A stretch of DNA of 64,000 nucleotides from Nocardia crassostreae (GTDB taxonomy: Bacteria > Actinomycetota > Actinomycetes > Mycobacteriales > Mycobacteriaceae), in NCBI RefSeq assembly GCF_001613405.1, contig NZ_BDCH01000014.1, positions 434,001-498,000 of the forward strand, in the 5' to 3' direction. The position numbers and the translations under genes were made by a program. Below the pieces are notes generated by a model. That model was not told the origin of the DNA and did no database searches. It saw only the letters and a program-made list of their open reading frames with translations. Shown one piece after another: positions 38,189 to 58,748 of this stretch (the stretch's first letter is position 1; each line of letters starts with the position of its first letter).

Positions 38189-39505
38189 TCAGCCGCGCCC
38201 CGGACCGTTGGTTTCGGGAGTATCGCGTTGATACACATCGGGTATGCCGTCACCGTCGTCGTCACGGTCCTCGGCCTCGCACAGCTGCCGGTAGATTCCG
38301 TTGCGGCGCTTGACCAGTAGCGCGGCCAGGACGGCGGCCACGAGCGATCCGATGAGCACGGCGGCCTTGATCTGCTCGGCTCCGGCGGGGAAGGCCAGAT
38401 CGCCGATGAGAAGTGCGACGGTGAATCCGATGCCCGCCAGCGCCGCCAGCGCGAACACGTCCTCCCATCGCAGATCCGAATTGAGCTGCGCGCGGGTGAA
38501 GCGAACCGCCGCGTAGGTCCCGCCGAAGATTCCGACGGTCTTGCCGACGACCAATCCGAGCACCACACCGAGGGATTCGGGGTGGGTGAACACCTCCCCC
38601 ACCGCCGAAACAGACATCGTCACCCCGGCAGCGAACAGCGCGAACAGCGGGGCCGCGAGGCCCGCTGAGACAAGTCGCAGCACATGGCCGGTGCGCTCAC
38701 CCGGCGAGGCGACCTCCCCTGTTTCCTCATCCCGCGTCACGCGCAGGAGCAGGCCCATGCACACGCCCGCGACGGTGGCGTGCACACCTCCCAAGTAGGT
38801 CAGCGCCCAGATAGCCAGCCCGAGGGGCACATACCACCACCAACCCCGGCCCCGGTAGCGCTGCAAGAGATAGAACACGACCAGACCGGCGACCGCTCCC
38901 CCGAGCGCTACGGGGTTCAGATCGTCGGTGAAGAAGAACGCGATGATGGCGATGGCGCCGAGGTCGTCGACGACGGCCAGGGTGAGCAGGAACGCGCGCA
39001 GAGCGGCGGGCAGGTGGGTGTTGAGCACGGCGAGGACCGCCAGCGCGAAGGCGATATCGGTCGCCATCGGTACGGCCCAGCCCGCCGGGCTGCCGCCTCC
39101 GATCGCGACGACCAGGAGATACACCGTGGCGGGCAGTGCCATGCCGGACAGCGCCGCCACCACCGGTAGCGCGGCGGTTGCGGGAGTGCGCAGCTCGCCG
39201 ACGACCAGTTCCCGCTTCAGCTCGATTCCCGCCACGAGGAAGAAGATCGTCAACAGCCCGTCGGCGGTCCAATGCTGCACCGACAGGTCCAGCCCGAGCG
39301 CGGCGAGGCCGATGTGGAAGTCGCTGATCCGCTGATACCAGTCGCTCCATGGTGAGTTGGCCCAGACCAGCGCGAGCACGGCCGCGCCGAGCAGCAGCAA
39401 CCCGCCGACCGTTTCCGTCCGCAGCGCTCGCGCCAATGCCGAACGCTCCGACCAGGACAACAGGCCGAGAAAGATCGGGCGCTGGCGCGGGGTGGCGGCA
39501 GCCAT
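38189..39505 (-). CDS. nhaA: Na+/H+ antiporter NhaA
   Basis: The product has 438 residues and is intact. NhaA signatures are LLTIFFLVAGIELKRELVVGEL, MATDIAFALAVLAVL with the ion-binding Asp pair, TLAVVDDLGAIAIIAFFF, and LAALAGIGFTVALLIGDLAF. It ends in an acidic tail (EDRDDDGDGIPD) resembling a calcium-binding repeat. ATG 39505 has a GGAGG site. It exchanges sodium or lithium for protons at the membrane. The leader carries the 19-nt motif shared with sulP and the yqiJ-like gene. It converges with sulP, leaving only 17 bp between them. Confidence 0.95.
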   Translation of the reverse strand: MAAATPRQRPIFLGLLSWSERSALARALRTETVGGLLLLGAAVLALVWANSPWSDWYQRISDFHIGLAALGLDLSVQHWTADGLLTIFFLVAGIELKRELVVGELRTPATAALPVVAALSGMALPATVYLLVVAIGGGSPAGWAVPMATDIAFALAVLAVLNTHLPAALRAFLLTLAVVDDLGAIAIIAFFFTDDLNPVALGGAVAGLVVFYLLQRYRGRGWWWYVPLGLAIWALTYLGGVHATVAGVCMGLLLRVTRDEETGEVASPGERTGHVLRLVSAGLAAPLFALFAAGVTMSVSAVGEVFTHPESLGVVLGLVVGKTVGIFGGTYAAVRFTRAQLNSDLRWEDVFALAALAGIGFTVALLIGDLAFPAGAEQIKAAVLIGSLVAAVLAALLVKRRNGIYRQLCEAEDRDDDGDGIPDVYQRDTPETNGPGRG

Positions 39506-39721: not shown

Positions 39722-40159
39722 TCAGATCCCCACCGCGACGCCGAGGAGTCGCGAGCACGTGACGACGCCGATCAACGACCCGTCGGCGACCACCGCGACG
39801 AGCGGGCTCCGAGTCCGCGCCATCACTTCCGCGACCACCGCCAAGGTGTCGTCACCGTGCACCACCGGCGGGTCCGGCAGCGCGGCGACGACATCACGAA
39901 TCTTCTTGCCGCGCAGCCGGTCCGCTGCTCGATCCCACATGTGCTCGTCGAGAACTCCGGCCAGCAGCGGCATCTCGCGCACGTACGCGGGGACGAGCGC
40001 GCGGACCATCTGCCAGGCCGCGACAACGGTGGGCGAGCCAGGGGAATCGAGGACCACGACCCCGGGCAGCCGACCTTCCGCCAGTAGCCGGGCGACCTCG
40101 AGCGCATCGGCATCCGGCGCGACCGTAGGCCACTGTTCCGCAAACTGCCCGGCGCGCAT
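39722..40159 (-). CDS. CBS-domain-pair protein
   Basis: The product has 145 residues forming one Bateman module of two CBS motifs: the first in APDADALEVARLLAEGRLPGVVVLD, the second in VHGDDTLAVVAEVMARTRSPLVAVVADGSLIGVVTCSRLL. It probably binds an adenine nucleotide and acts on a partner, perhaps a nearby transporter. The ATG at 40159 was chosen as the first with family similarity. It is on the same strand as nhaA but 216 bp upstream of its start, and divergent from the stress operon. Confidence 0.85.
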   Translation of the reverse strand: MRAGQFAEQWPTVAPDADALEVARLLAEGRLPGVVVLDSPGSPTVVAAWQMVRALVPAYVREMPLLAGVLDEHMWDRAADRLRGKKIRDVVAALPDPPVVHGDDTLAVVAEVMARTRSPLVAVVADGSLIGVVTCSRLLGVAVGI

Positions 40160-40352: not shown

Positions 40353-40427
40353 ATGGAGCTTCTCGTGTTGATACGACATTCCATTCTGCGTACCCTTTTC
40401 GGCCCGGCACCTGCCGGGCATGCGTGA
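40353..40427 (+). CDS. 24-residue leader peptide overlapping the yqiJ-like gene
   Basis: ATG 40353 has a strong GGAGGAAA site. The peptide begins MELLVLIRHSILRTLF and ends in AGHA. Its TGA lies just inside the next gene (8-base overlap), which has no clear ribosome-binding site of its own apart from the GGGC-rich region. Translation of this leader probably feeds translation of the stress operon. Confidence 0.55.
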   Translation: MELLVLIRHSILRTLFGPAPAGHA

Positions 40428-41040
40428 GTTCTTCGCGGCGACACTGAGTTTTCCCACCGTTCTCTTCAGCTTCGCGCTGATCGTCGTCGTCGCGTTCTGG
40501 CTCGCCGTCCTGATCGGCGGCGCCGAGGCCGAGCTCTTCGAATCCGGCCCCGATGCCGAGGTCCCCGCCGTTCACGAGCGGTGGGGTCTCGGTGGGGTGC
40601 CCGCCACGCTCACGCTGTCGGTGCTCATCGCACTGGCATGGTTTCTGTGCCTGGCCGGATCGGCCCTGACCGCAATGCTGCATCTCGGTGGCGTCATCGG
40701 AGTACTGAGCGGTGTCGGCGTGCTGATCGGCGCCGTCGTCGCGGCTGTCGCCGCGACGCGTGCGGTGGTGATCCCGCTGCGCCGCGTGTTCGCACCCGCC
40801 GACCCGATCACACGGGACTCGCTCGTCGGCCGTGTGTGCGTGATCCGCACCGGCCGCGTCGGACCGGATTTCGGTCAGGCCGAACTCGTTTCGGCCGACG
40901 GCTCGTCGGCGATCGTCCAAGTCCGGCAGACCGTTCAACAAGCCATGGAAACGCCACTCACACACGACGTTTCCGCCATCGTCTACGACTACGACCCGGC
41001 CACCGAGACCTTCTGGGTGGCCGCTGTGGAGGGGATTTGA
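40420..41040 (+). CDS. YqiJ/NfeD-like membrane protein with OB-fold domain
   Basis: The product has 206 residues. Two or three membrane helices (TVLFSFALIVVVAFWLAVLIGG, ATLTLSVLIALAWFLCLAG and LGGVIGVLSGVGVLIGAVVAAVAA) are followed by a beta-rich OB-fold (SLVGRVCVIRTGRVGPDFGQAELVSADGSSAIVQVR). This is the pattern of YqiJ and of NfeD proteins, which are encoded beside flotillins and anchor them at the membrane. The ATG at 40420 lies within the end of the leader gene. Its stop overlaps the flotillin start (TGATG). First structural gene of the stress operon. Confidence 0.85.
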   Translation: MREFFAATLSFPTVLFSFALIVVVAFWLAVLIGGAEAELFESGPDAEVPAVHERWGLGGVPATLTLSVLIALAWFLCLAGSALTAMLHLGGVIGVLSGVGVLIGAVVAAVAATRAVVIPLRRVFAPADPITRDSLVGRVCVIRTGRVGPDFGQAELVSADGSSAIVQVRQTVQQAMETPLTHDVSAIVYDYDPATETFWVAAVEGI

Positions 41041-42888
41041 TGTCTACCATCGCCATTGGACTCGGTGTCCTGCTCGGCCTCGCGCTGCTCCTCGCGATCG
41101 CCACGCTGTTCGTCGTGAGCAGTCTGTTCAAGAAGGTGGAACAGGGCCGCGCGCTGATCATTTCGAAGATGCGCCGGGTGGATGTCACCTTCACCGGCGC
41201 GGTCGTGCTGCCGGTGCTGCACAAGGCCGAGTACATGGACATCTCGGTGAAGACCATCGAGATCGCCCGTGTCGGCCGTGACGGCCTGATCTGCCGGGAC
41301 AATATTCGCGCCGATATCCGCATCACCTTCTTCGTGCGGGTCAACAAGACCGTCGACGATGTCATCAAGGTGGCCCAGGCCATCGGCACCCCCCCGCGCC
41401 AGCGATCAGGCGACCTTGCAGGAACTGTTCGCCGCCAAGTTCTCCGAGGCGCTCAAGACCGTCGGCAAGCACCTGGACTTCGTCGATCTCTACACCCAGC
41501 GCAATGAATTCCGCGACCGCATCATCGCGGTGATCGGCACCGACCTCAATGGCTACAGCCTCGAGGACGCGGCCATCGACTATCTCGAGCAGACCCCGCT
41601 GATGCAGCTCGACGCCCAGAACATCCTGGACGCACAGGGCATTCGCAAGATCACCGAGCTGACCGCCGTGGAACATGTGCGCACCAACGAGTTCCGGCGT
41701 CAGGAGGAGAAGGAGATCACCCGCCAGAACGTGCAGGCCCGCGAGGCGGTGCTGGAGCTGGAACGCCAGCACGCCGACGCCGAGATCCGGCAGAAGCGCG
41801 AGGTGGAGACCATGCGCGCCCGCGAGGAGGCCGAGATCGCCCGCGTGCAGGCTGAAGAGCGGCTGCGCTCGCACGGCGCGCACCTGCGCACCGAGGAAGC
41901 GCTCGGAATCCAGCAGGAGAATATGGGCCGGGAGATCGCCGTCGCGGAGAAGAACCGCGAACGAGTGATCGCCATCGAGTCCGAGCGCATCGAGAAGGAC
42001 CGGCTGCTCGAAGTGACCGCCCGCGATCGTGATGTGGCGCTGGCCAAGATCGCCGCCGATCGGGAGTTGGAAACCGAGAAGCGCACCGTCGCCGAGGTCG
42101 TCCGGGAACGCGGCGCGGTGGACAAGACCGTCGCCGAGCAGGAGGAGCAGATCAACCGGCTGCGCGCGGTCGAGGCCGCGGAGCGGGATCGGCAGGCCGT
42201 CATCATCCGCGCCGAGGCCGAGGCGCAGGAGCATCTGGTCAAGGACATCAAGGCCGCGGAGGCCGCCGAGGCGGCGGCCAAATTCAAGGCCAAGGAGGCG
42301 CTGGCCCTGGCAGAGGCCGAGCAGCAGGCCGCGGATCTGCAGGCGCAGGCCAAGATTCGGCTCGCCGAGGCTTCCCAGGCCGAATCTGCGGCCTACGGGC
42401 TCGGTCAGGCGCAGGTCAAGGAGCGCGAGGCCGACGCGGTCGAGAAGATGGGCCGCGCCGAAGCGGTCGCGCTGCGCGAGAAAGGCCTGGTCGAGGCCGA
42501 GACGCTGCGCGAGAAGCTCAAGGGCGAAGCGGAAGGCTTGGAGGACAAGGCGAAGGCGATGGCAGCCCTCGACGACGCCACCCGCGAGCACGAGGAGTAC
42601 CGCCTGCGACTGGAACTGGAGAAGGAGGTGGAACTGGCCAAACTCGACGCCCACCGCGAGGTCGCCGCGGCGCAAGCGACGGTGCTGTCCACCGGTCTGC
42701 AGCAGGCGAATATCGACATTGTCGGCGGCGATTCGGTATTCCTGGACCGAATCGTCGGCGCCATCGGCCTGGGCAAGGGGCTCGATCAGTTGATCGGCAA
42801 CTCCGAGGTCGGCAAGACCGCCGCGTCCGCGCTGCTTGGCAAACTGGCCGGGCGCAACGGCGACGGCGAACGCGCAGCAGTCAAGTGA
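41040..42888 (+). pseudogene. Flotillin/band-7 protein (YqiK-like), frameshifted at a C7 run
   Basis: The family protein is about 615 residues. The first 117 codons are in one frame: a membrane helix (VLLGLALLLAIATLFVVSSLF), then the band-7 domain (KTIEIARVGRDGLICRDNIRADIRITFFV). At 41389-41395 seven C residues follow GGCA, and the reading continues one base out of frame as RASDQATLQELFAAKFSEALK through long coiled-coil repeats to 42888. Deleting one C restores the whole protein. The coiled coil is rich in Glu-Ala-Glu repeats and ends in a Gly-Leu segment like other YqiK proteins. The lesion is either a homopolymer base-call error or a true slip. Confidence 0.85.
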
Positions 42889-45800
42889 GCACCGCGGCCC
42901 AGGCCGGTCCTGATCGCCGGTTCGGAGGGGAATCCGGCGATCAGGGTCCGGCCGAGACGGCACTGGACAGAGGCATCTACGAGATCCTGCGCGCACGGCT
43001 CGGCGCACACGCCACCGAATTGGCGCGACAGGCCGAGCAGCTCAACGACCGCCGGATCGAAGCGTTCGGCGGCACCGAACCGACTCTGCTCGTCACCGTG
43101 CGTGTCCGCACGGCGAACAACTGTGTCCCGCGCGACGTGGTCGCGCTGCCCGACGGGCGAATGGTGTTCGGCTACAACGTGTTCGTCGGAATGCGCGCCG
43201 AGACCACCGTCGCGGACGTCTTCGCGGTCCACCGGTTCGCACCCGCCCCCGCCGATCGGTCCGGCCCCACAGGTCAACGCGGCAGCGCGATGCAATACGA
43301 CGCCGCGAAGCGGCGCGGCCCCTCGGGTCACCACGGCAATGCAGGTCAGCAGGGTGGCGCGGGTCGGCACGGCAATGCGGGTCAGCACAGCGGCACCGGT
43401 CAGTACGGGGACGGCCGTCAGCACGGGGACGCGGGTGCGGGCGGCGCGGCGGAAGGTCCGCCACTTGGCATCGAATCCGCATACGCCGCTGGACTTTTCG
43501 ACGATCCGCGATTCCACCGCGACTTCGCCGAGCTGTATCGGTACTACAGCCAGACCCGGTTGCTGCAGTTGCGGCGCGTCGAGGGCCGCCTGCTGGCGGT
43601 GTTCCAGACCGGCCAGAGGACCGACGACATCCGGGTGCTGCGCTGGCAACTGGACGCCGACGGATCGATCCGGTATCTGGACAACCGGGGCGAGCGCGAT
43701 CACGTGTTCCCGCCGTCGCACGACTTCGACTGGATCGAGACCACCCGCGACGACCAGGTACTCGGCCGCCACCCGCATCTGTCGATCCTCGGCGAGGTCT
43801 TCGTCGAGACGCTCGGCGGCACCCTGACTATCAAGGTGGAGAACAACACCGAATCCGGCGCGGGCGTCTACAGCGAGCCCGTCGAGGAGCCGTTGCAGAG
43901 TCTGGCCGACGCCGACGTGCACTATGCACGGCTCGGTCCGCTCATTCTGTTGCGCATCCGGCCGTACAACGAAACCGGTTGGCGGCAACTGGTTTTCAAT
44001 ACCCGAACCAAGGAGGCGGTTCGCCTGGACGGCCTCGGGCGGTCCTGTCGGCGGCTGCCCGAGGATCAGGGCGTCATCTTCCCGGGCGGCTACTATCTGG
44101 TCACCGGCGCGCACAAGCGATTCGACATCGACGTCGCGGATCTCGAATACGAGCGCACCATTCGGGCGGGCAACGGCGAGGATGTGCTGTACGCCTATCA
44201 CGCCCGCGCCGCCGGACGCACGCTGTTGCTGCCTTACAATATCGTTCGCACCGATGTCGCCAATCCTGTTGCCTGCCAGGGGTATTCGCTGTTCGACGAC
44301 GGCACGATGGCGGTGCTGCGCGCGCTGTCGGAGGAGCCCGCCCGGGTACACCCGATGCAGGTGTGGCGTACGCCCTTCGCCTCCGATCTGCACGCCGCGC
44401 CGCCGGAGGGCACCGGCCCGCTGCATCGGATCGGTAATGCCGAGTTGGTGCGCGGCATCGCCGAATGCCTCGGCGTGGCCCGCACCGTCGACGAGATGCG
44501 GCCCTCCGCACGCGTTTTCGAAGCCGTCATCGCGGCGTGCACCCGGGTCGCCGATCAGTACCCATGGCTGGGCGCGGAGGATCTCGGCGATCCGGGCGCC
44601 GCCCTGGCCGCGCTGTGCGCTACCGCCGAACAGGTGCTCGACGAGTTCGCGAAGGTCACCGTACTGACGGCGCGGGCCGCCGCCGCGGTGGACGAGCGCA
44701 TCGCGACGCTCGTCCGCCACGCGCGTGCGGCTGCCCACCGCACCGCCGGTGACTGGGTACGGCTGCTGGCCGACCTGCGCCGGGCCCAGGGACATCTGGT
44801 GACGCTGCGGGACCTGCGCTACGCGGACTCCGATCGCCTCGACGCGCTGGCGGCCACACTGGTGGAGTCGCTCGCCGACACGGGTCGTCGCGCGGTCGAA
44901 TTCCTGGGTGCGGCGGACTCGTTCGCGAGTTACCACGTCGAGCTCGACGACTTGCTGGAGCGGGCCGAGACGTTCGCTTCCGCCGCCGAGGCCGAACCGG
45001 TGCGACAGCGCCTGGCCGAGCAGACCGAGTCCCTGCGGGCAGTCACCGAGATCCTCGACGGCCTCGACATCGCCGACGCGACGGTGCGCACCGGCATTCT
45101 GGCTCACATCGGCGAGGTGCTCGCCGGGGTCAACCGGGTGCGCGCCAGCGCCGAGGCACGGCGCGTGGAACTGGTGTCGGCGGAGGGCCGCGCCGGGTTC
45201 GCCGCCGAATTCGCACTCCTGGGGCAGGCGGTCTCCGGAGCGCTGGCGGAATGTCGCTCCCCCACCGCGTGCGACGACCAGCTGGCGAGACTGCTGGCAA
45301 CCGTCGAGAATCTGGAGGCCCGCTTCGGCGAGATCGACGATTTCGCCGACCGGCTCGCCGCCAAGCGCGACGACGTCTACGAGGCGTTCACCGCGCGCAA
45401 GCAAACGCTGCTGGACGAGCGTTCCCGGCGTGCGCAACGCCTTGCCGACTCTGCGCAGCGCATGCTCGACAGCATCGGCCGCCGCGCGGCGGCGCTCGGC
45501 TCACTGGACGAGGTGAACACCTATTTCGCCGCCGACGCGATGGTGGCCCGGCTGCACCAGGCGGTCGCGGACCTACGGGCCCTCGGTGATCAGGTCCGAG
45601 CCGAGGAGTTCGACGGACGGCTGCGCTCCGCCCGCCAGGAGGCCGGGCGCGCGCTGCGCGATCGCGCCGACCTCTACGACGACGGCGGCGAGACCATCCG
45701 GCTGGGGCGGCACCGATTCGCGGTCGACACCCGGCCGGTGGAGCTGACCATGATCCCGCACGACGGACGCATGTGCTACGCCATCACCGGCACCGACTAT

Positions 45801-48257
45801 CGAGCGCCGTTGCGCGACAACGACTTCGACGCCACGCGGCGGTACTGGTCGCAGCTGCTGGTCTCGGAGACGACCGAGGTGTATCGATCCGAGTATCTGG
45901 CGGTGTCGATCCTCATGCAGGCCGAACGGGACGGCAGCCTCGACGGCCTGCACGCGGCGGTCGCCGACGGCGGGCTGTCCGAACTCGTGCGCAAGGCCGC
46001 GGCCGGGCGCTACGACGAGGGCTATGAACGCGGCGTGCACGATCAGGACGCGACCGCCATCCTGGCGGCCGTGCTGCGCCTGCACGCGAGCGCCGGGCTG
46101 CTGCGGTTCCCCGCCACGGAACGCGCCGCCGCACAGTTGTGGTGGCGCTTCGGTTTCGATGGCCAGGACGGCGCACGCGCGTGGTGGCGGACCCGCGCCG
46201 GATCGCTCTCCCGCGTCCGCGCCATCTTCGGCCGGACACCCGCCGTGGCTCAGATGTGCGCCGAATTGGCTGCGGACATCGCGCAATTCACCGCCCGGAT
46301 CGGTTTCCCGGCCGTCGATACCGAACTGGCCGGGGAGTACCTGTTCGAGGAATTGTGCGCGCCGACACCGAAATTCGTCACCTCGGCCGGAGCCAGGCTG
46401 TTGCTGGACCGATTCCACCGCGCCCTGGGCACGGCCTCGGCGACCGCACGCGCCGAGTTCGAGTCCGACCTCGGCACGCTCGCACAAGCCGGGGCGACTA
46501 TCCCCGCACCGACCGGAATCGCCATGCCCGAACCGGCCGGAGCCACCGCGCCCAAGCCGGTCAACGCCACCGCGCCCGAATCGGTCCGGGCGACGGCACC
46601 CCACAGGGCCGGGGCGAGCGTGGCGCTCGCCGCCCGTTTGCAGCTGGCACAGGCCTGGCTGACGGCCTATCTGGAACAGGCCGACGATGCCGCTGAACTG
46701 GCGGATGATTTGCCCGAGGCGGTCGCGATCGCGCTGTGCGGGCCCGATCTCCCCCGCACCGAGCCCGCCGCCGTCCGGACCGCGTCGGTCCCCGGTCTGC
46801 TGGGCAATCACCCCCGTATCACCCAGCGGGAGTTGACTTTCCGCCTGGACGAGCTGCTGGCGCGCCTGCGCCGCTTCCACTGCGACCGGGTGCCCGGCTT
46901 CCGCGCCTACCTGCGTCGGCGCACCGCGTTGGTGACCGCCGAGCGGGATCGGCTGCGGTTGCCGGAGTACCGGCCCCGGGCATTGAGCGGGTTCGTCCGC
47001 AACCGGCTCCTCGACGAGGTGTATCTGCCGCTCATCGGCGACAATCTGGCCAAACAGCTCGGCACCGTGGGCGATTCGGACCGCACCGACCGTTCCGGAC
47101 TGCTGCTGTTGATCTCGCCACCTGGCTACGGCAAGACCACGCTGATGGAATACGTTGCCGCACGGCTCGGCCTGGTGTTGGTCAAGGTGAACGGCCCCGC
47201 GCTCGGGCATGACGTCACGTCGGTCGATCCGGCGCGGGCCCCCAGCGCCACCGCCCGCCGGGAACTCGAAAAGATCAATTTCGCACTGGAACTCGGCAAC
47301 AACGTGCTGCTCTACCTCGACGACATTCAGCACACCTCACCGGAGCTGCTGCAGAAGTTCATCGCCCTGTGCGACGGGCAACGCCGCATGGAGGGCGTGT
47401 GGGACGGCCGCGCCCGCACCTACGACCTACGCGGCAAACGGTTCGCGGTGTGCATGGCGGGCAATCCCTATACCGAGCAGGGCAAGCGATTCCGCATTCC
47501 GGATATGCTCGCCAACCGCGCCGATGTCTGGAACCTCGGCGATGTGCTCTCCGGCCGTGACGAACTGTTCGCGCTCAGCTACATCGAGAACGCGCTCACC
47601 GCGAATCCCGTGCTCGCACCGCTGTCCTCGCGCGAGCGCGCCGATGTGGAACTGCTGGTGCGCATGGCCCGCGGGGACGAGCGAGCCACCGCCGACCGGC
47701 TCGCCCACCCCTACTCGTCGACCGAACTGTCCGAGATCACCGCCGTCCTGCGCATGCTGCTGCGGGTGCAGCAGGTGGTCCTGTCGGTCAATCGCGCCTA
47801 TATCGCCTCGGCCGCGACGGCCGACGCCGCCCGCACCGAACCGCCGTTCCGGCTCCAGGGCTCCTACCGCAATATGAGCGCCCTGGCCGAACGGATCGTG
47901 CCGGTCATGAACGACGACGAGCTCGAAGCCCTCATCGACGACCACTACCTCGGTGAGGCCCAGACCCTCGCCGCCGACGCCGAATCCAATCTGCTCAAAC
48001 TCGCCGAACTGCGCGGCCGTCTGACCGAGCGACAGGCCCGGCGCTGGACCGACGTCACAGCCGCCTACCTCCGCGAGCGGGCCCTCGGCGGCGCCGAGGA
48101 CGACCCCTTGGTCCGCGCCATCGGCGCGCTCGACCTGCTCGGCGACCGCATCGCCGGAATCGAATCCGCGCTGCGCGCATTCGAATCGGCGGATCCCACC
48201 GGCAAACACGGCCGGGCCTTGCCCGCGCCGGGAAGGAACGGAGACAACAATGAGTGA
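42885..48257 (+). CDS. Giant AAA ATPase with DUF3686 domain (DNA-repair-ATPase family)
   Basis: The product has 1790 residues. The N-terminal half contains the DUF3686 region (YEILRARLGAHATELARQAEQLN, then FGYNVFVGM), interrupted at residues 126-190 by a Gly/His/Gln-rich insert. Long helical regions fill the centre. The AAA core is C-terminal: Walker A SPPGYGKTTLMEY at about 1411, Walker B LLYLDDIQHT at about 1475, and a sensor-like AVCMAGNPYTEQGKRFRIPDMLANRADV. GTG 42885 overlaps the flotillin stop. The family is annotated as involved in DNA repair, but the usual genetic partner is a YqiK flotillin, as here. It probably remodels a flotillin-linked membrane complex. Confidence 0.88.
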   Translation: MSTAAQAGPDRRFGGESGDQGPAETALDRGIYEILRARLGAHATELARQAEQLNDRRIEAFGGTEPTLLVTVRVRTANNCVPRDVVALPDGRMVFGYNVFVGMRAETTVADVFAVHRFAPAPADRSGPTGQRGSAMQYDAAKRRGPSGHHGNAGQQGGAGRHGNAGQHSGTGQYGDGRQHGDAGAGGAAEGPPLGIESAYAAGLFDDPRFHRDFAELYRYYSQTRLLQLRRVEGRLLAVFQTGQRTDDIRVLRWQLDADGSIRYLDNRGERDHVFPPSHDFDWIETTRDDQVLGRHPHLSILGEVFVETLGGTLTIKVENNTESGAGVYSEPVEEPLQSLADADVHYARLGPLILLRIRPYNETGWRQLVFNTRTKEAVRLDGLGRSCRRLPEDQGVIFPGGYYLVTGAHKRFDIDVADLEYERTIRAGNGEDVLYAYHARAAGRTLLLPYNIVRTDVANPVACQGYSLFDDGTMAVLRALSEEPARVHPMQVWRTPFASDLHAAPPEGTGPLHRIGNAELVRGIAECLGVARTVDEMRPSARVFEAVIAACTRVADQYPWLGAEDLGDPGAALAALCATAEQVLDEFAKVTVLTARAAAAVDERIATLVRHARAAAHRTAGDWVRLLADLRRAQGHLVTLRDLRYADSDRLDALAATLVESLADTGRRAVEFLGAADSFASYHVELDDLLERAETFASAAEAEPVRQRLAEQTESLRAVTEILDGLDIADATVRTGILAHIGEVLAGVNRVRASAEARRVELVSAEGRAGFAAEFALLGQAVSGALAECRSPTACDDQLARLLATVENLEARFGEIDDFADRLAAKRDDVYEAFTARKQTLLDERSRRAQRLADSAQRMLDSIGRRAAALGSLDEVNTYFAADAMVARLHQAVADLRALGDQVRAEEFDGRLRSARQEAGRALRDRADLYDDGGETIRLGRHRFAVDTRPVELTMIPHDGRMCYAITGTDYRAPLRDNDFDATRRYWSQLLVSETTEVYRSEYLAVSILMQAERDGSLDGLHAAVADGGLSELVRKAAAGRYDEGYERGVHDQDATAILAAVLRLHASAGLLRFPATERAAAQLWWRFGFDGQDGARAWWRTRAGSLSRVRAIFGRTPAVAQMCAELAADIAQFTARIGFPAVDTELAGEYLFEELCAPTPKFVTSAGARLLLDRFHRALGTASATARAEFESDLGTLAQAGATIPAPTGIAMPEPAGATAPKPVNATAPESVRATAPHRAGASVALAARLQLAQAWLTAYLEQADDAAELADDLPEAVAIALCGPDLPRTEPAAVRTASVPGLLGNHPRITQRELTFRLDELLARLRRFHCDRVPGFRAYLRRRTALVTAERDRLRLPEYRPRALSGFVRNRLLDEVYLPLIGDNLAKQLGTVGDSDRTDRSGLLLLISPPGYGKTTLMEYVAARLGLVLVKVNGPALGHDVTSVDPARAPSATARRELEKINFALELGNNVLLYLDDIQHTSPELLQKFIALCDGQRRMEGVWDGRARTYDLRGKRFAVCMAGNPYTEQGKRFRIPDMLANRADVWNLGDVLSGRDELFALSYIENALTANPVLAPLSSRERADVELLVRMARGDERATADRLAHPYSSTELSEITAVLRMLLRVQQVVLSVNRAYIASAATADAARTEPPFRLQGSYRNMSALAERIVPVMNDDELEALIDDHYLGEAQTLAADAESNLLKLAELRGRLTERQARRWTDVTAAYLRERALGGAEDDPLVRAIGALDLLGDRIAGIESALRAFESADPTGKHGRALPAPGRNGDNNE
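43263..43458 (+). repeat. Gly/His/Gln-rich repeat insert in the giant ATPase
   Basis: About 65 codons encode imperfect repeats of the form GxxGQxG or HGNAGQ. The insert splits the DUF3686 region between VHRFAPAP and PPLGIESAYAAGLF. The sequence looks like a recent expansion and is probably disordered. An Ala/Pro repeat of the type ATAPxP also occurs in the same gene at about 46490-46620. Confidence 0.75.
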
Positions 48258-48933
48258 GTCGCGGTTTTCCAATGTCGAGCGCCCGCCGGTGTTTCCGGTG
48301 TGCCTCGTGGTCGATGTATCGGGCTCGATGACAGGTGCGCCGATCGAGGCGGTGAACCATGCACTGCCGGAGCTGCGGGACGCGATTCTGGATGATCCCT
48401 CGACGGGCGAGATCGCCCGCATCGCGCTGGTGACGTTCTCGACCGAGGCGAGCATTGTGCTGCCGTTGTCGAACCTGCGCGAAACTCCCATTCCGATCCT
48501 CCGGGCGGAGGCGCTGACCAATATCGAGGCCGGACTGCGGACGGCACGCTCGGCTGTCGAAACGGGGATCCGGAGTCTGGGCCGAGGTACCCGGTTCTAT
48601 CGGCCGGTGGTGTTCTTCCTCAGTGACGGGGTGAACACCGGCGGCGACTGGTCCGCGGCGTGGCGGGAGCTGACCGACCGGGAGGACAAGTTCGGGGCCG
48701 AAGTGGTGAGCTTCGGCATGGGCGCGGCCGATGAGGCTACGATCAGCCGGATCTCCACCGGGCATGCGTATTTCGCCGCGGAATCCGATCCGGCCACCGC
48801 GGTGCGCGCCATTCTGCGCAGCATTGTCGGCAGCATCAAGTCGACGTCGAGTTCGTTCGGCATGCCCAGCGGCGGTGCGCTGATCATCCCGCCCGCCGAC
48901 GGCCTGACCCGGCTGCCCGAGAATGTCGTCTGA
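48250..48933 (+). CDS. TerY-like von Willebrand A protein
   Basis: The product has 227 residues, a single vWA domain. The MIDAS motif DVSGSM is at about 22-27, the Thr and Asp of the site are in ALTNIEAG and FFLSDGVNTGG, and the end is Gly/Ser-rich. It overlaps the ATPase stop by 8 bases and is followed by a PP2C phosphatase and a kinase. That trio is the TerY-P triad described in Ter-linked stress systems, in which the vWA protein is thought to nucleate a phosphorylation-controlled complex. Confidence 0.9.
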   Translation: MSESRFSNVERPPVFPVCLVVDVSGSMTGAPIEAVNHALPELRDAILDDPSTGEIARIALVTFSTEASIVLPLSNLRETPIPILRAEALTNIEAGLRTARSAVETGIRSLGRGTRFYRPVVFFLSDGVNTGGDWSAAWRELTDREDKFGAEVVSFGMGAADEATISRISTGHAYFAAESDPATAVRAILRSIVGSIKSTSSSFGMPSGGALIIPPADGLTRLPENVV

Positions 48934-49856
48934 TGACCGCTGGCGATCAGCTGCGTGAATCGTCCGGTGCCACAGCGGAGTTGACGGAGTTGCCATCGGA
49001 GGCGCCGCAGGTCGGGCGGCTCGTGACCGAATCCGGGCCGCCACGGCTGCCGGGCACACCGATCGCACTCGCAGGTACCCGCGTCGACGCCGGTGTGCTC
49101 GCGGACCACCGGCTGGCCGCTGCCAGCCTCGTCGGCCGGGCTCACCTCGCCCAGGGCACGTCGGCGCAGGATGCCTACTGTTTCGCATTGGCGCAGGACG
49201 AATCGGCACTGGTGCTCGCCGTGTGCGACGGCGTCGGCAGCAGCCCGCACACCGCTCAGATCGGCGCGGAGTTGCTCGTTCGGCTCTGCTGCGACCGCGC
49301 GGCCGCGATCACCGACGTCGAGGCACGCGCGGACGCTGCGGCAGCACTCGGTGCGGCCGTCGCCGACGCGTGCCGTACCTTGTCGGACTGGCGTGCGCTG
49401 CTGGCGCCGGAGTTGACCGATCGCGAACTGCATTGCGCCGCACTGGTGTGCCGGTTGCCGCGCGACGGCGGAGCGGCCGTTTTCGTCCGCGCGGGCGACT
49501 GCGAGGCCTTCCTGCTGAGCGATGGGGAGTTCGACGCGGTGTTCCCCGAATGCGATACCGGACCGGCCAATGTGGTCCGCGGGGTCCTGCCGTGTCCGGA
49601 TCCGTCGTCCGTGCTCGAATTCGCGCGATGCGAACTAGGCAATGCCGAGGCACTGGTGCTGGCGACCGACGGCCTGGCGGGCGATCTCTTCGACTCGCCG
49701 ACGGTGCGTGACTGGCTGGCCGAGCGCTGGGCCGCACCGTGCGGGACGGCCTGGATGCTGGATTCCCTGCGCTATCGCGCACAGGGGTCACACGACGACC
49801 GCACGGCCCTGGTGACCTGGCTGCCTCCCCGGCCAGAACGGATGCGAGAGCCGTAA
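48933..49856 (+). CDS. PP2C-family Ser/Thr phosphatase
   Basis: The product has 307 residues. The PP2C core has GRAHLAQGTSAQDAYCF, VLAVCDGVGSSPHTAQIGAE with the metal-binding Asp, AAVFVRAGDCEAFLL, LVLATDGLAGDLFDSP and GSHDDRTALVTW with the last metal Asp. The N-terminal 60 residues are polar and variable. The ATG overlaps the vWA stop (TGATG). It should reverse phosphorylation by the adjacent kinase. Confidence 0.92.
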   Translation: MTAGDQLRESSGATAELTELPSEAPQVGRLVTESGPPRLPGTPIALAGTRVDAGVLADHRLAAASLVGRAHLAQGTSAQDAYCFALAQDESALVLAVCDGVGSSPHTAQIGAELLVRLCCDRAAAITDVEARADAAAALGAAVADACRTLSDWRALLAPELTDRELHCAALVCRLPRDGGAAVFVRAGDCEAFLLSDGEFDAVFPECDTGPANVVRGVLPCPDPSSVLEFARCELGNAEALVLATDGLAGDLFDSPTVRDWLAERWAAPCGTAWMLDSLRYRAQGSHDDRTALVTWLPPRPERMREP

Positions 49857-49858
49857 CC

Positions 49859-51480
49859 ATGCCCACTCTGTACGGGAGATCCGGTGCGGCGTACCGCGTC
49901 GAGGACGAGCCGTTCAATACCTCGGGCGGTCAGTCGGAGCTGTTCCGCTGCCGCGACCGGAGAGATCGGGTGCGGGTCTACAAGCGATATCGATCCCCCG
50001 TCACCGATCCCGATCCGATCGACTGGCTGCGCGCGGTCACCGATCGCGGCCGGGCGATCGTCGCCGCCGCCGAGCGCAAGCGCCGCGAGAACGAAACGGC
50101 CGAGAGTTCCATCAACTGGCCGATCGACATCGTCTTCGACAAGGGCGCGGTGGCCGGGGTCGTCCTGCCGTTGATTCCCTCGTCGTTCCTGCGAATCGGC
50201 GGCAAGGCACAGACATTCGACTACCTGTGTCTCGCGTCGGCCGCTCCGCCGCCCGCGGCGGTGCGCGTCGGAGTCCTCATCCGGATCTGCGATATCTTCG
50301 CCGCTCTCGAACGGGCGGGGCTGATTCACGGGGACATCTCGCAGAAGAACATCGTGTGGCGGCAGCATCGCACGCACGCCTATCTCATCGACTGCGACGG
50401 CATCCGACCCCGGAACTCGACCGCCCGGCGCGGCGTCGGCACCGAGGGATGGAAGGACCCGCGCTGGGTCGCGGGGAAGATTCCGGCGCACGATCAGTAC
50501 AGCGACCGCTTCGGGCTGGCGGTGCTCATGTATCGCGGTCTGCTGCTCAACCCGGGCGCACCGGCCCTGGTCGCCGGGCAGTGGCATCGCCCCTCCGGGC
50601 TACCCGCCGACCTCGACCCGCGACTGCGCGCACTGTTCGAGCGCGCCTTCGACGAGCCGTACCAGACCGACCAGCGACCGACCGCCCAGGAATGGCGGGC
50701 GGGGTTGATCGCTGTCTTCCTGACGCCGGACCGCACCGGCTTCCAACGGACACCATTGCGAGTCCTTGCCCGACATGCCGATCAGTTCCGTCCTGCTCCG
50801 GTCACGCCGCAGCGCACCGCGTCGATCGATTCCCGAGCGGGGCGAACGCCTCACACGCCGGGCCCGCCGCTCGTCACCGGAACCGCCAACCCGAGCCGCC
50901 GCCGGGGAGTGACGCTCGCCGCCGTCGCGGGTGTCGTGGTCGGATTGCTCGCTGTGTCCGCGATAGTCGACAGCGCCGACGACGCGAAGACCCGAAGCCC
51001 GAAGCCGACCGCGATCACCGTGGGCCCCTATGACCCGCTGCCCCCGGGCTCTCACCCGAAATGCTCGAGCAGATTCCACGCACCGCGACATCGCTTCCGG
51101 CCCCGCCGGTTCCGGTGGGCACCTGCATCGTGGTCACCGCAACCGGAACCGTCGCCGCCAGCGGCGACTGCGAATCGGCAGGTTTCCCCTATGTGGTCAC
51201 CGCCGGACTGCCCAATACCGCCGCCTGCTCGACCCGTCAGCACACCGTCGCGTACACCGGCACCCGGAATCGCATCTGCATACAACCGAATCTGCTGCCG
51301 CACCAGTGCTACAGCTATCCATCCAATGGGTGGATCACACCCGCCGCCTGTGATCAACCAACCACCGCCCGTCTGACCCTCGCCCTGCCGGGTGGAACCC
51401 CGTGCGCCGAACCGTTCGGCGCCGAATTGACGGCCCCCTCCGGCAATCCACCTCGGACGCTGTGTGTCGCCGCAGCCTGA
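49859..51480 (+). pseudogene. Membrane-anchored protein kinase-like protein with a frameshift after the TM helix
   Basis: The N-terminal kinase-like domain has GGQSELFRC and the Lys in RVYKRY, the catalytic loop HGDISQKNIVWR at about 157, and LIDCDGIRP as the metal loop. It lacks a typical APE segment and resembles TerY-P kinases. A membrane helix follows near 350-370 (TLAAVAGVVVGLLAVSAIV). Near 51040-51060 the frame breaks: the kinase frame becomes random, while the alternative frame gives a Cys-rich outside domain (VGTCIVVTATGTVAASGDCESAG) ending at 51480. Adding one C to the CCCCC run at 51042-51046 joins them. Confidence 0.78.
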
Positions 51481-51758: not shown

Positions 51759-52340
51759 CTACTGCATGGCGAAGTGCAGCAGCGCCTGCATATCACCCTG
51801 CTTGATCTTGCCCTTGCGGTCCAGCACCTCCAGCTGCCAGTCCGCGCCGTTACGGAAGGCGCGGCAGATCGCGTTGGCGTTATCGGCACCCAGCAGGGAC
51901 GGCCAGATGTCCGCGACCTGCTGGCTACTGCCACCGCTGGCGTCGTAGACCTTGAACGAGATGTTGTTGGCCTTCTCGAAGGAACTGCCCTTCTTGAACG
52001 CGGCGGCCACGAACACGATCGCGGTGATCGCGCTCGGCACGTTCGCGAAGGTCACGTGCACGGTTTCATCATCACCGGCAGCCGCGCCGGTCTGCTCGTC
52101 ACCGGTGTGGGCCACCGAGCCGTTGCCGAGCGGGTCGAGCGAATCCAGCCCCGCGAACCGCGCCGGATCAGCGCCCTGCATGAGGATCGCGATCAGGTCG
52201 AGGTCGACGCCCTTCTTACGGCGCGCAATACCGAGCAGCCCGCCGCTGGCTCCCGCGGAGGGATCCCAGCTGACCCCGACACTCAACTTGGTGATGCCGA
52301 CGAGATCGGCGGCACCGTCTTCTTTCCTGAGCGTAATCAC
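51759..52340 (-). CDS. TerD-family stress protein 1
   Basis: The product has 193 residues of the TerD domain. It has TKLSVGVSWDPSAG, GVDLDLIAILMQGA, the acidic Ca-binding region GDEQTGAAAGDDETVHVTFANVP, and FKVYDASGG. The N-terminus MITLRKEDGAADLVGI resembles TerZ rather than TerD. Proteins of the family bind calcium and assemble with TerC or phosphorylation modules. It lies tail-to-tail with the kinase operon and starts 58 bp from the next terD stop. Start codon taken from family length. Confidence 0.9.
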   Translation of the reverse strand: MITLRKEDGAADLVGITKLSVGVSWDPSAGASGGLLGIARRKKGVDLDLIAILMQGADPARFAGLDSLDPLGNGSVAHTGDEQTGAAAGDDETVHVTFANVPSAITAIVFVAAAFKKGSSFEKANNISFKVYDASGGSSQQVADIWPSLLGADNANAICRAFRNGADWQLEVLDRKGKIKQGDMQALLHFAMQ

Positions 52341-52397: not shown

Positions 52398-52892
52398 TCA
52401 GATGGTGACCCCGAAGTCGCGGGCGATCCCGGTCAGCCCGGACGCGTACCCCTGACCGGTGGCACGGAACTTCCACTCCGCACCATTGCGGTACAGCTCA
52501 CCGAACACCATGGCGGTCTCGGTGGAGGCGTCCTCGGACAGGTCGTAGCGGGCCAGCTCGGTGCCGTTGGCGCGGTCGACCACGCGGATGTAGGCGTTAC
52601 GGACCTGCCCGAAACTCTGCCCACGCGAATCGGCTTCGTAGATCGACACCGGGAACACGATGGCGTCGATGGTGGGCGGGGTGTTGGCCAGGTCGACGTT
52701 GATCACCTCGTCGTCGCCCTCGCCCTCACCGGTGCGGTTGTCGCCGGCGTGCTCGATGGCGCTGGCGTCGAGGTCGAAGTCGGTGCCCGTCGTGGTGCGC
52801 AGATCCCAGCCCAAGCCGACGGCCACCGCCGTCAGGTTCGGAGCCTGCTTGGTCAGCGACACATTGCCGCCCTTGGACAGACTGACGCCCAT
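52398..52892 (-). CDS. TerD-family stress protein 2, with a 27-residue internal deletion
   Basis: The product has 164 residues against 191 for its paralogue at 57107-57682. The two are nearly identical in [32 protein letters not shown] and the C-terminus [15 protein letters not shown]. The segment between DASAI and HTGDN, including KVVSDQHFVFYNN, is missing without a frame change. That segment contributes to the calcium site and a beta hairpin in TerD. Strong site before ATG 52892. The dyad motif lies about 275 bp upstream. Confidence 0.88.
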
Positions 52893-53210
52893 ACCGATTT
52901 CTCCTATCGATCATCACGGCGGCCGAGCTCCGGCCAGCCGAAAACGCCCGGCTTACACAGGGACAACGCGAGCAGGGCCCAGTCGGAACGGGGGTCGAGG
53001 AAGCTGTGTGCGATCGCATGCTGACCAACCCGGTATCGCCCCTCGAGCCTCATCGGACCGCTTGTCGCCACCTCGCGAACGTACGACCGCCGCAATGGCG
53101 TTCGACATGGAGCGGCCCAAAGTCCCACTGGGACTGTCCATATCGTCCGTGCCGGGCATGAGAAAACACTAGCACGTACCACTGTATGGATTGCCGTGCG
53201 TAGCGAGACC
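52893..53210. other. 318-bp leader region before terD 2
   Basis: No gene is supported here. The region contains a copy of the Ter-locus dyad motif at 53166-53189 and otherwise random short frames. If transcription of terD 2 starts near that motif, the mRNA has an untranslated leader of about 270 nt, as also seems true for the terD copy at 57107-57682. Confidence 0.5.
53166..53189. promoter_or_regulatory. Ter-locus dyad motif, copy A
   Basis: ACACT at 53166-53170, AGCACGTACC spacer, ACTGT at 53181-53185, then ATGG. It matches copies B and C at AGCACG, the last spacer C and ACTGTATGG. One mismatch in the left half-site against a perfect ACAGT/ACTGT inverted repeat. Confidence 0.6.
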
Positions 53211-53654
53211 TCAGATCGGGTTCTCATCTCCGTCGTAGAGGTCGGCGTAGCGTCGCCAGCCGTACAGTGTGAACGCCATACTGGCAGCTACCCCGAGGAT
53301 GGTCGGAACCTTCCGGCGGTGCCAGGCCGCTAGAATGGCTTCGGCGAGAGCGAGAAAGCCTACGGCGTTGACTGCGCTCATAGTTCGGTCCAGCTCGGGA
53401 TGAGCCACCCACCGCTCCTCACCGAGGATGGCCCGGGTAGCAAAGGAATTCCGATCGGCAGGCTCTGGGGTCACGATCGGATTGATCGCGAACCAGATCA
53501 GAACTCCAGCGCCCACGTCCGCCTGTCGAGTCCAGAACGGTGCGACAGCCAGCGGCGTTGTCAGTAGCCGGGTCCAGGCACTGACAGGATGGGCGTGTCG
53601 GGCGAACATCCAGCGACGGAGATACCGTAAACGTTCCACAATCATTCCTACCAC
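53211..53654 (-). CDS. Small membrane protein, DUF6653-like
   Basis: The product has 147 residues. It has WMFARHAHPVSAWTRLLTTPLAVAPFWTR, a hydrophobic helix LIWFAINPIVTPEPADRNSFATRAILGEERW, and two C-terminal helices. The order and the RHA-P-SAWTR motif match what I recall of DUF6653. The start is GTG 53654 or ATG 53645. It sits between the two terD clusters and may not belong to either operon. Function unknown. Confidence 0.7.
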   Translation of the reverse strand: MVGMIVERLRYLRRWMFARHAHPVSAWTRLLTTPLAVAPFWTRQADVGAGVLIWFAINPIVTPEPADRNSFATRAILGEERWVAHPELDRTMSAVNAVGFLALAEAILAAWHRRKVPTILGVAASMAFTLYGWRRYADLYDGDENPI

Positions 53655-53727
53655 CAGCCGGGCTCGGCGAGGTCAGACTCATCTCCCACACATGGTTCGC
53701 CGATTCGGGGAGCCAGCGCATTGCGAT

Positions 53728-53764
53728 TCCTGATCGCTGAAGCTGTCGGCCTCAGCGATCAGGA
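53728..53764 (-). terminator. Perfect 13-bp hairpin after the CNNM operon
   Basis: TCCTGATCGCTGA at 53728-53740 pairs perfectly with TCAGCGATCAGGA at 53752-53764 around an 11-nt loop. It begins 9 bp after the stop of the second CNNM gene (minus strand). There is no T-run, but the stability and position fit a terminator. Confidence 0.65.
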
Positions 53765-53772
53765 GCTGGGCG

Positions 53773-54795
53773 TTACCGCGTGTTGGCCGCAACGGTGGGT
53801 AGCAGTCGTTGCAGCACATCGGTGATGGTGATCAGCCCGACCAGCTGGCCGGTGCCGGGGGTGGTGACGACGGCCAGGTGATTGCGAGCTTCCCGCATGG
53901 TGTGCAGGGCTTCGTAAACCGGAACGGTGGTGGTCATGGTCAGCACCGGCCGCATCAAATCGCTCGCGCTGGTGTGCGGGGCGGCGGTGAGGCTGTCGCG
54001 CACGTGGACGACGCCGTGGATCGCGTTCGCGTCGCGGACCAGCAGCCGGAGGTGACCGGTGGTGCGGGAGGCCGCTTTGATCGCGTCCAGGTCGGCGTCG
54101 GGGGTGACGGCGCTGGGTGCGGGGTTGGGTCGCACGATGTCGGCGAGGGTGAGGCTCTCCAGTTCCAGTGCGCTGGTGAGGTTCCCGTGGTAGCGCTCGT
54201 CGAGAGTGCCCACGGTGGCGGAGTGCTCGACGAGATGCCGCAGCGCGGCGGGGTCCTGCCCGGCGTCGACCTCGTCGACCGGGGTGACGCCGACCTTGCG
54301 CAGACACCAGTTGGCCATGCGGTTCAATGCGGTCAGCAGCGGCCGGGTCAACCCCATGAACGCGCGCATCGGGATCGCCAGCACAGTGGCCGACTTCTCC
54401 GGGTGCGCGATCGCCCAGGACTTGGGCGCCATTTCCCCGACCACCAGGTGCAGGAAGGTCACGATCACCAGCGCCAGCACGAACCCGGCGACGTCGGCGA
54501 ACCACAGCGGGGCGCCGATGTTTTCGAACAGCGGTGTCAGCCAGTGGTGCACAGCGGGTTTGGTGATCGCGCCCAGAGCAAGGGTGCACACGGTTATTCC
54601 GAGCTGGGAGCCGGCCAGCAGCACCGACAGCTCCGAGGAGCTGCGCAGCGCGGCGCGGGCGGCGCGGCTGGCGGGGGCGGCGTCTTCGAGTCGATGCCGT
54701 CGCGCGGCGATGAGCGCGAACTCCACCGCGACGAAGAACGCACTGGCCGCGATCAATACGACGGTAATCGCGGCGATCGTCCAGGGATTACTCAT
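53773..54795 (-). CDS. CNNM/CorC-family membrane protein 2 (DUF21 plus CBS pair)
   Basis: The product has 340 residues. An N-terminal DUF21 membrane domain (AAITVVLIAASAFFVAVEFALIAARRHRLEDAA and the VVGEMAPKSWAI motif) is followed by a CBS pair (RPVLTMTTTVPVYEALHTMREARNHLAVV). The CorC/HlyC C-terminal domain is absent, so it is shorter than its partner. It overlaps the first CNNM gene by 8 bases. Such pairs move Mg2+ or Co2+ or protect from metal stress. Its place among Ter genes suggests divalent cation export under stress. Confidence 0.9.
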   Translation of the reverse strand: MSNPWTIAAITVVLIAASAFFVAVEFALIAARRHRLEDAAPASRAARAALRSSSELSVLLAGSQLGITVCTLALGAITKPAVHHWLTPLFENIGAPLWFADVAGFVLALVIVTFLHLVVGEMAPKSWAIAHPEKSATVLAIPMRAFMGLTRPLLTALNRMANWCLRKVGVTPVDEVDAGQDPAALRHLVEHSATVGTLDERYHGNLTSALELESLTLADIVRPNPAPSAVTPDADLDAIKAASRTTGHLRLLVRDANAIHGVVHVRDSLTAAPHTSASDLMRPVLTMTTTVPVYEALHTMREARNHLAVVTTPGTGQLVGLITITDVLQRLLPTVAANTR

Positions 54796-56152: not shown

Positions 56153-56411
56153 GACCCCACCTCGGCACTACATTGCGGAGGGTCCGCAGGAGGCGAGCAG
56201 GGTATTCGAGGTTTGCGCTTCGCGCGTTTCATGGCCTCTCTCATTCGAGAAAACGGATGTGGGACCGAGAATAGATCAAGCTACAGCGCCGACGCCGCGA
56301 CGGACTCGAGACCGCGACGCCCAGGCCCTCGTTCGAGGACCCGGGCTCGCTGTGCAGGTCCGTCTGCGGCGCAGCGCTATTCGCTGGCGGCCAGGGGTTC
56401 GACGGCCGAGA
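56153..56411. other. 259-bp gap
   Basis: It lies between the CNNM operon start and the end of the TerA-like gene (both minus strand), so it must contain the CNNM promoter. No gene, dyad motif or repeat was recognised in it. Confidence 0.4.
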
Positions 56412-57080
56412 TCATTTGCTGCCCGCCGCCCACTTCAACCCCCAGCCGTAAGCGCGGTCGAGATCGGCCTGATTGCCGCGGATGTAGTTGACCTCGCGCT
56501 GCACGGTCACTCCTTGGCCGGTATTGGTCAGCAACGCGATCGCGCAGATCCGCGCGCCCGCAACCGCAGAATCCAAGCGGACCTCGACCTGCGGGCCCGC
56601 GGTCGGGAACATGGTGACCACCCCGTCGACCGCGGCCCAGTTCGGCGCGCCCTCGTAAATCATCGCGAAGATCAGAATCCGCCGGAACGCCTCCGGCCGT
56701 TCGAGATTGATGTTCAGGTTCTCGCCACCGGCGACAGCGCCGGTGCGATCGTCGGCGTCCAGCGCCACAAACGGTCGGGCGTGCAACGCGCCGAAGCTGT
56801 TGCCCAGCGCCTGAATAACCCCCTTGGAGCCGTCGGCGAGTTCGTAGAGACAACCCAGATCCAGATCGACACCGCCACCGAGTCCGGCGAGCTTCGCCAG
56901 GAACCCGGTCTTGCGCGGCGCCCCGCTTGTCCAGTTCAGATTCACCCGCATCACGCCCTGGCGCTCACCGGCTTTGGTGAGATCGACGCTGCGTTCAGTC
57001 TTAGTGAGCGTGACCTTGCTCAGGCTCACCCCCGGCGCCCCGGCCGCGGTGTCGGGCTTCTTGGTGTAATCGATTGCCAC
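56412..57080 (-). CDS. TerA/TerD-family stress protein
   Basis: The product has 222 residues. It starts VAIDYTKKPDTAAGAPGVSLSKVTLTKTERSVDLTK, a TerA-like N-terminus, and carries VDLDLGCLYELADGSKGVIQALG, FVALDADDRTG and the C-terminal GWGLKWAAGSK. GTG 57080 is the family start. It follows the terD copy at 57107 by 26 bp on the same strand, so the two are one transcript. A role in the Ter stress complex is likely. Confidence 0.88.
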   Translation of the reverse strand: MAIDYTKKPDTAAGAPGVSLSKVTLTKTERSVDLTKAGERQGVMRVNLNWTSGAPRKTGFLAKLAGLGGGVDLDLGCLYELADGSKGVIQALGNSFGALHARPFVALDADDRTGAVAGGENLNINLERPEAFRRILIFAMIYEGAPNWAAVDGVVTMFPTAGPQVEVRLDSAVAGARICAIALLTNTGQGVTVQREVNYIRGNQADLDRAYGWGLKWAAGSK

Positions 57081-57106
57081 GTGGCCCCTTCGGTCGATTC
57101 GCCGGC

Positions 57107-57682: not shown

Positions 57683-57740
57683 TACCCATTCACTCCTCTA
57701 TATATCGGGGTTGACGGCCGACCGCGCACGGTCCGCCAGA

Positions 57741-58250: not shown

Positions 58251-58280
58251 TTGAGACCCTATTGCGGAAGGAGGGTGCTG

Positions 58281-58679: not shown

Positions 58680-58748
58680 CCGCGCGCCAACCTAGGCCGG
58701 CATCGCAGTCGCTTCCAGATGGCGGCTACCGCGACAGCAATTGGGCGC

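Follow-up and report, generated by a model that had tools for sequence, protein, structure and literature searches.

Six tightly packed genes in the genome of Nocardia crassostreae raise the question of whether they work as one conserved system or are two known modules that have been joined. They lie on the forward strand at 40420–51480 of the window, by which we mean the whole stretch of 64,000 nucleotides analysed here (assembly GCF_001613405.1, contig NZ_BDCH01000014.1, positions 434,001 to 498,000); the genome that holds it is 8.3 Mb in 57 contigs. A sequence-only reading of this DNA had seen in the six genes both a union of two known modules and an under-described stress or defence system in its own right. 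Comparison with related genomes bears out the first of these statements and not the second. At a probability of roughly 60%, we read the operon as a lineage-specific, end-to-end joining of two independent modules, by which a receptor-type phospho-switch would be co-expressed with a membrane ATPase platform.

The order from 40420 is YqiJ, flotillin, DUF3686-AAA+ ATPase, vWA, PP2C and kinase, all on the + strand, as the sequence-only reading had proposed and as open reading frames, Pfam matches and motifs confirm. The junctions, which had been said to overlap or to lie within 3 bp, are overlaps of 1, 4, 8 and 1 bases followed by a gap of 2 bases ahead of the kinase. The first gene (40420..41040, +) encodes a YqiJ-like membrane protein of 206 aa with hydrophobic stretches at residues 3–40 and 55–121; it has no Pfam match and is assigned by its position, by relatives upstream of flotillin and by the published operon. 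The flotillin gene (41040..42888, +), assigned from Pfam and relatives, begins with a Band_7/SPFH region (Band_7, E 2e-4, just below the Pfam cut-off) that leads into a long, charged, helical-looking part, and its frame is broken near 41389–41395. The ATPase gene (42885..48257, +) encodes 1790 aa with DUF3686 (E 2e-195), DUF7902, AAA and AAA_5 matches over the Pfam cut-off, Walker A and B motifs and, from a structural model, a predicted N-terminal beta-propeller. The vWA gene (48250..48933, +; VWA, E 5e-12) and the PP2C-type phosphatase gene (48933..49856, +; PP2C_2, E 4e-23) rest on Pfam and motifs. The kinase gene (49859..51480, +), assigned from motifs, coding bias and relatives, holds a kinase domain at 49859–50758, a membrane helix at residues 348–374 and a Cys-rich ectodomain at 51061–51480. 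The helix and the ectodomain had both been foreseen; in the assembly, the ectodomain stands in another frame. Likewise the flotillin and the kinase are each split, so that the span holds six genes in the order given only if the breaks are read through.

A motif scan found HGD/N/DCD in the kinase, DG/TDG/DD in the PP2C, the MIDAS motif in the vWA protein and the Walker motifs in the ATPase. We take the first set to be the catalytic motifs of the kinase and the second to be the metal motifs of the phosphatase, and presume the usual roles for MIDAS and Walker residues. The kinase is otherwise consistent with a divergent member of its kind, because its profile reaches PknB and other kinases at E 0.0045 or weaker only; in Pfam it scores just over the cut-off with Kdo (E 2e-4) and more weakly with RIO1 and Pkinase. 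A search for solved-structure relatives gave none at E 0.01 for the C-terminal part of the flotillin, the ATPase or the vWA protein, and two chance-level matches (E about 0.4) for YqiJ. No RNA family was found at gathering score, and G+C along the six genes is even, at 0.66–0.71.

How far each part of the operon is conserved was examined by scanning genome contigs for relatives of the ATPase, the best 80 of 291 loci being used. Genes were called with a simple home-made caller; it called none at six of the 80 loci, so that gene clustering covers 74 loci, while the counts of YqiJ and flotillin and the search for the triad cover all 80. A YqiJ relative accompanies the ATPase at 77 of the 80 loci and a flotillin relative at 78, and the loci without one or the other (L012, L053 and L065) start at a contig edge. 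Of the 74 loci, clustering assigns an ATPase to 72, a flotillin to 71 and a YqiJ to 69; the next-largest cluster is found at 21 loci in mixed positions, and its example looks like an ABC-type ATPase. By this comparison YqiJ, flotillin and ATPase are a conserved three-gene unit, because the first two are found at 77 and 78 of 80 loci and no other gene cluster rises above 21 of 74; the unit is widespread and is an already described envelope-stress module.

Among ATPases of this family, 72 of the 73 scanned have a Walker A motif and 71 a Walker B motif. Residues 1–659 of the window protein, modelled with 21 relatives (mean pLDDT 77), form a helix at 31–61, strands over 67–495 and helices after 512. 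VIA-align likened the model to WD40 and other propeller chains (best Z 10.3, rmsd 6.2, 227 residues aligned), and Foldseek returned low TM-scores; taken together, these results give the predicted propeller moderate support. Within the DUF3686 region, 43260–43454 (residues about 126–190) encodes a low-complexity insert rich in G, H and Q that contains an imperfect 18-base repeat at 43324–43388, and six Nocardia relatives have a short loop instead.

The vWA, PP2C and kinase genes were followed in two samples with one genome per species, 148 genomes of the genus and 394 of the class. Close triads are present in four other genomes of the genus, with vWA identities of 74, 75, 72 and 63% (loci L115, L116, L117 and L118); in L115 a contig end falls inside the kinase. 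The triad stretch of genome G092 begins at a contig end, inside the kinase. No ATPase match occurs in the stretches fetched around the vWA relatives of the genus. In the class, 16 of the 20 loci fetched around vWA matches have the complete triad and no ATPase. Genomes G092 and G099 carry both modules, on different contigs, and next to the platform they have genes related to the NhaA and lipoprotein genes of the window. We consider the two modules to be independent because the triad is found without the platform in L115–L118 and in these 16 class loci, and because G092 and G099 keep the two apart on separate contigs. The vWA gene of G072 departs from the pattern, being 50% identical and having no PP2C or kinase match in a 19-kb stretch. 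At L119 (10209–14837), a vWA relative of 50% identity without PP2C or kinase matches precedes a gene for a protein of 1281 aa.

The kinase domains of three relatives are 55–60% identical to that of the window, and the parts after the membrane helix differ. That of L116 is Cys-rich and related to the window's (E 3e-15 in a two-sequence comparison), L117 has a short Cys-containing tail and L118 a long, possibly propeller-like extension; the Cys-rich part of the window kinase matches nothing in Pfam, PADLOC or NCBIfam. This comparison shows a triad kinase that keeps its predicted catalytic part while the putative ectodomain changes. On plasmids, 1853 records match the window vWA, with identities that all stay below 60% and alignments that in no case reach 80% of the query. 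The best of these (L171, 6902–10770) belongs to a conjugative plasmid of Rhodococcus; behind the vWA gene come a gene for a hypothetical protein and one for a serine/threonine kinase, possibly a triad on a mobile element.

If the six genes made up one system, their order should be met again. DUF3686 is present in 14 of the 148 genus genomes and in 60 of the 394 genomes of the class sample. Triad-type vWA genes occur in 29 of the 148 at E 1e-3, six of them at 50% identity or more with the window's own genome included, and in 45 of the 394, where the search was run at E 1e-8, seven candidates were scored per genome and adjacency was judged by coordinates. The triad does not stand beside DUF3686 at any of the 13 other genus loci, whose flanks were read (L128 being a contig of 13.6 kb only), and the six-gene order is absent by coordinates from the 59 other DUF3686 genomes of the class sample. 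Twenty genomes of that sample carry both parts; of the 19 other than the window's, seven have them on separate contigs and twelve at a distance of 211,689 bases or more. Nor does the triad follow the ATPase at any of the 72 ATPase loci that have at least 3.5 kb downstream. A conserved six-gene system was rejected on these counts, and the claim that the six genes are an under-described system in their own right is not supported. Seen in the window genome only, the order seems to reflect a single event that brought known parts together rather than the presence of a new, conserved system.

At the point of joining, the vWA reading frame opens within the last bases of the ATPase gene, giving an 8-base overlap, with GGAG upstream of the start. 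So clean an overlap argues against a misassembly. It also bears on how the joining should be read. The triad might owe its place downstream of the ATPase to chance and act on unrelated targets, the joining being neutral, and we regard this as a serious contender that stops short of an even chance and is compatible with a lineage-specific joining of two modules. In relatives, triads have other neighbours, and kinases of the same family stand without PP2C or vWA flagged nearby at all eight further loci viewed (L161–L168, own genome included), whereas the translational overlap and the similar G+C on both sides are not the debris expected of a random insertion. One of the eight, L161 (7874–9259), is a second kinase of this family in the window's own genome, on another contig, with no PP2C or vWA flagged beside it.

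A narrower idea, also compatible with the joining, is a dedicated pathway in which an envelope signal would switch the platform, the membrane kinase having the DUF3686 ATPase or the flotillin as its substrate. The precision of the overlap and the membrane link of both modules would fit it, and so would their co-occurrence. Among the genus genomes with a close vWA (at least 60% identity), three of five (the window's, G092 and G099) have DUF3686, as against 14 of 148 overall; the hypergeometric probability is 0.006, or 0.04 with G092 and G099 counted as one, and with the lone vWA of G072 added the count is four of six (0.0007), kinship and genome size being ignored throughout. The class sample gives 20 of 45 against 60 of 394 (4e-7, with the same two factors ignored). 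These figures are confounded by kinship, because G092 and G099, where both parts occur, and G072 as well rank among the genomes whose flotillins are closest, and we take co-occurrence as weak support for the modules belonging together. Since, moreover, the order was not found elsewhere and the 13 other DUF3686 loci of the genus have no adjacent triad, a dedicated pathway appears doubtful.

The joining of two independent modules, as we picture it, would work as follows. YqiJ, flotillin and the ATPase would form a platform in a membrane microdomain, with the AAA+ ATPase on the cytoplasmic side, acting under envelope or ion stress. The vWA protein, phosphatase and membrane kinase would form a receptor-type phospho-switch whose ectodomain may sense a condition outside the membrane; the targets of the kinase would be its own chain, the vWA protein or further partners, and the phosphatase would reset the switch. 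Because the vWA start codon falls within the stop region of the ATPase gene, switch and platform probably share a transcript and are coupled in translation. Co-expression is what we infer; that the ectodomain senses a signal, or that the kinase acts on the platform at all, is proposed in the same spirit; a functional link between the modules is plausible.

The broken frames bear on whether such an operon would be active at all. In the flotillin, the frame shifts at a run of C near 41389–41395, coding bias changes frame at the same place, and the window has no other run of C or G that reaches seven bases; 12 of 12 related flotillins read through the stretch in one frame (13 loci, L130 left out). 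In the kinase, the frame shifts near 51000–51100, ahead of the Cys-rich part, again with a change of frame in the coding bias, and in relative L116 kinase, membrane helix and related ectodomain stand in a single frame (by phmmer, at the E-value given above). One could take the operon to be decaying, with flotillin and kinase as true pseudogenes, given that both genes change frame and that one break sits in that C run. Coding bias is still strong past the flotillin break, however, and conserved genes unrelated to the operon are split too: a histidine kinase (734–1873) falls into adjacent frames, cut inside HisKA_3, and a sulfate permease (36756–38171) is in two pieces. The fact that at least two unrelated genes of the window are also split suggests indel errors in the assembly, with sequencing error as the likeliest cause, ahead of decay or slippage, and decay seems improbable. 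A flavin monooxygenase (10290–11876) also looks split, its second piece being without a Pfam match.

It is tempting to go further and picture a receptor-controlled flotillin machine, in which a PP2C-reset kinase with exchangeable ectodomains gates a membrane-anchored AAA+ ATPase, the C run of the flotillin adds slippage or phase control of the scaffold, and the modules cooperate in trans where they are unlinked. We mention this as a long shot.

Several points weigh against the reading of a lineage-specific joining itself. The joined order is found in one genome, whose assembly breaks frames in two of the six genes, and if those breaks are real, platform and receptor are both damaged. L027 and L037 have a PP2C-like gene, without vWA or kinase, close to the three-gene module, and four Amycolatopsis loci (L017, L019, L021 and L024) give very weak vWA matches (E 0.008–0.06). 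The propeller fold counts here with its moderate support only, and a useful joining might be expected to persist in more than one lineage.

The surroundings of the operon offer a further clue to its role. Upstream, on the - strand, are genes for an NhaA Na+/H+ antiporter (38189..39505), a recurrent neighbour of the three-gene module, and for a CBS-domain protein identified by Pfam (39722..40159). Downstream, adjacent and convergent as the sequence-only reading had noted, are Ter genes on the - strand: a TerD-family gene (51759..52340, Pfam), of which a close relative lies near the DUF3686 module in L132 and L140, and the rest of the cluster (52398..59581), with Pfam TerD genes at 52398, 57107 and 59042 and two CNNM/CBS membrane proteins, also from Pfam. 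Five convergent genes look TerD-like to the eye; Pfam TerD recognises four of them, and the exception, 56412–57080, has no match at E 1e-5. In the TerD gene at 52398–52892, Pfam TerD falls in two stretches, and the protein has 164 aa as against 191 aa for its neighbour at 57107. Between the kinase and this cluster, a frame of 26 codons (51516–51596) resembles a truncated signal peptide by eye and is possibly a gene remnant.

NhaA adjoins the three-gene module in six of the 14 Nocardia loci (the window, L129, L130, L131, L133 and L134) in two arrangements, and TerD lies near it in six of the 14 (the window, L129, L130, L131, L132 and L140). NhaA relatives occur in 136 of the 148 genus genomes at E 1e-40; since each has one to three copies among the matches listed, adjacency of NhaA and platform by chance appears unlikely, with a count that is inflated by shared descent. 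Among the 74 ATPase loci with called genes, the window's NhaA or TerD matched in L036 only, a Nocardia locus, so the link is mostly one of Nocardia. Plasmids yielded 12 records with an ATPase relative, four of which were examined: two from Streptomyces with antiporter neighbours, pQBR103, and one that is unannotated. The plasmid of Streptomyces globosus has NhaA beside the platform module; on the other Streptomyces plasmid, the genes upstream are those of a cation:proton antiporter, CBS and ArsB/NhaD, and those downstream are CBS and TerD; and pQBR103 has the same ATPase family beside SPFH and PspA genes. Antiporter, CBS and TerD genes recur by the flotillin-ATPase module in several arrangements (L129–L134, L140 and plasmids L170 and L172). 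These neighbourhoods show NhaA and TerD genes, rather than the triad, as the recurrent neighbours of the platform in Nocardia, and because they do so we lean towards ion or membrane stress rather than phage defence.

An anti-phage system of TerY-P type would nevertheless be suggested by the vWA-PP2C-kinase composition, the more so as TerY-P guards Pseudomonas against phage, according to the relevant part of PMC10889362. In PADLOC, the kinase matches PD-T4-6 (E 2.6e-7) and PglW (1.8e-6), in its catalytic part only; STK_OB reaches E 0.044, the PP2C E 0.003, AAA matches are weak, the vWA has no match at all, and TerY-P is not called. Canonical TerY-P, or any other PADLOC defence system, was rejected since the kinase models are generic, the PP2C is weak and the vWA is unmatched. 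TerY-P, as set out in the passages of PMC11090510 on the system, combines vWA and PP2C with a Ser/Thr kinase fused C-terminally to a zinc ribbon, or to an OB fold in the Gao variant. The window has vWA, PP2C and kinase genes together in the same way, which is the part of the proposed TerY-P triad that stands, but its kinase continues into a membrane helix and a Cys-rich ectodomain, and no zinc ribbon or OB fold, the parts that define TerY-P, was found. An anti-phage role of this type is highly improbable, and the suggestion of a defence function finds no support in PADLOC.

What is new here is a combination of known parts, seen once. Searches of the open-access literature gave no report of the six-gene combination, though both halves are in print, described separately in the pertinent sections of PMC11237479 and PMC7159879. 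Should the two modules prove to be functionally linked, the flotillin-AAA+ platform would gain a named regulator, and none is described in the parts of the cited papers that deal with these modules; even without a functional link, the survey shows platform and kinase triad to be separate building blocks.

The closest counterparts of the first half are the YqiJ/YuaF-band-7/flotillin-AAA+ operons of the PSP network, for which Ravi et al. 2024 (PMC11237479) describe flotillin and YqiJ as accompanied by an AAA+ ATPase that has a coiled coil and a beta-propeller, and in some cases by PspA; the neighbourhood on pQBR103 agrees with this account. The window has the same three genes, and an abbreviated three-gene version is described there; it shares the flotillin and YqiJ-type pair, the AAA+ domain and, with moderate support, the propeller. 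The full version has a PspA/CesT-Tir pair, which is absent among the six genes and ten flanking proteins that were scanned with Pfam. The window module, in turn, continues into the kinase triad, and 'vWA' and 'TerY' have no occurrence in the main text of PMC11237479. Escherichia coli YqiJ-YqiK and Bacillus subtilis YuaF-YuaG (PMC2636767) pair an NfeD-type membrane protein with an SPFH2 flotillin, as here, but without an ATPase partner in the main text of that paper, in which the word 'ATPase' does not occur. For the second half, the relevant section of Kaur et al. 2020 (PMC7159879) describes an actinobacterial kinase-PP2C-vWA theme in GAP1-N2 conflict systems, whose active kinases are fused to a zinc ribbon, a beta-rich part or TM helices. 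The GTPase of those systems (GAP1-N2) is absent among the 16 proteins scanned, other genes of the window lying outside that scan. By gene content, genes 4–6 are this already described actinobacterial kinase-phosphatase-vWA triad and not canonical TerY-P: a kinase with a TM helix, a PP2C and a stand-alone vWA stand in one cluster, with activities predicted from motifs. The difference from the GAP1-N2 systems, as far as that section describes them, is that the triad of the window is attached to a flotillin platform.

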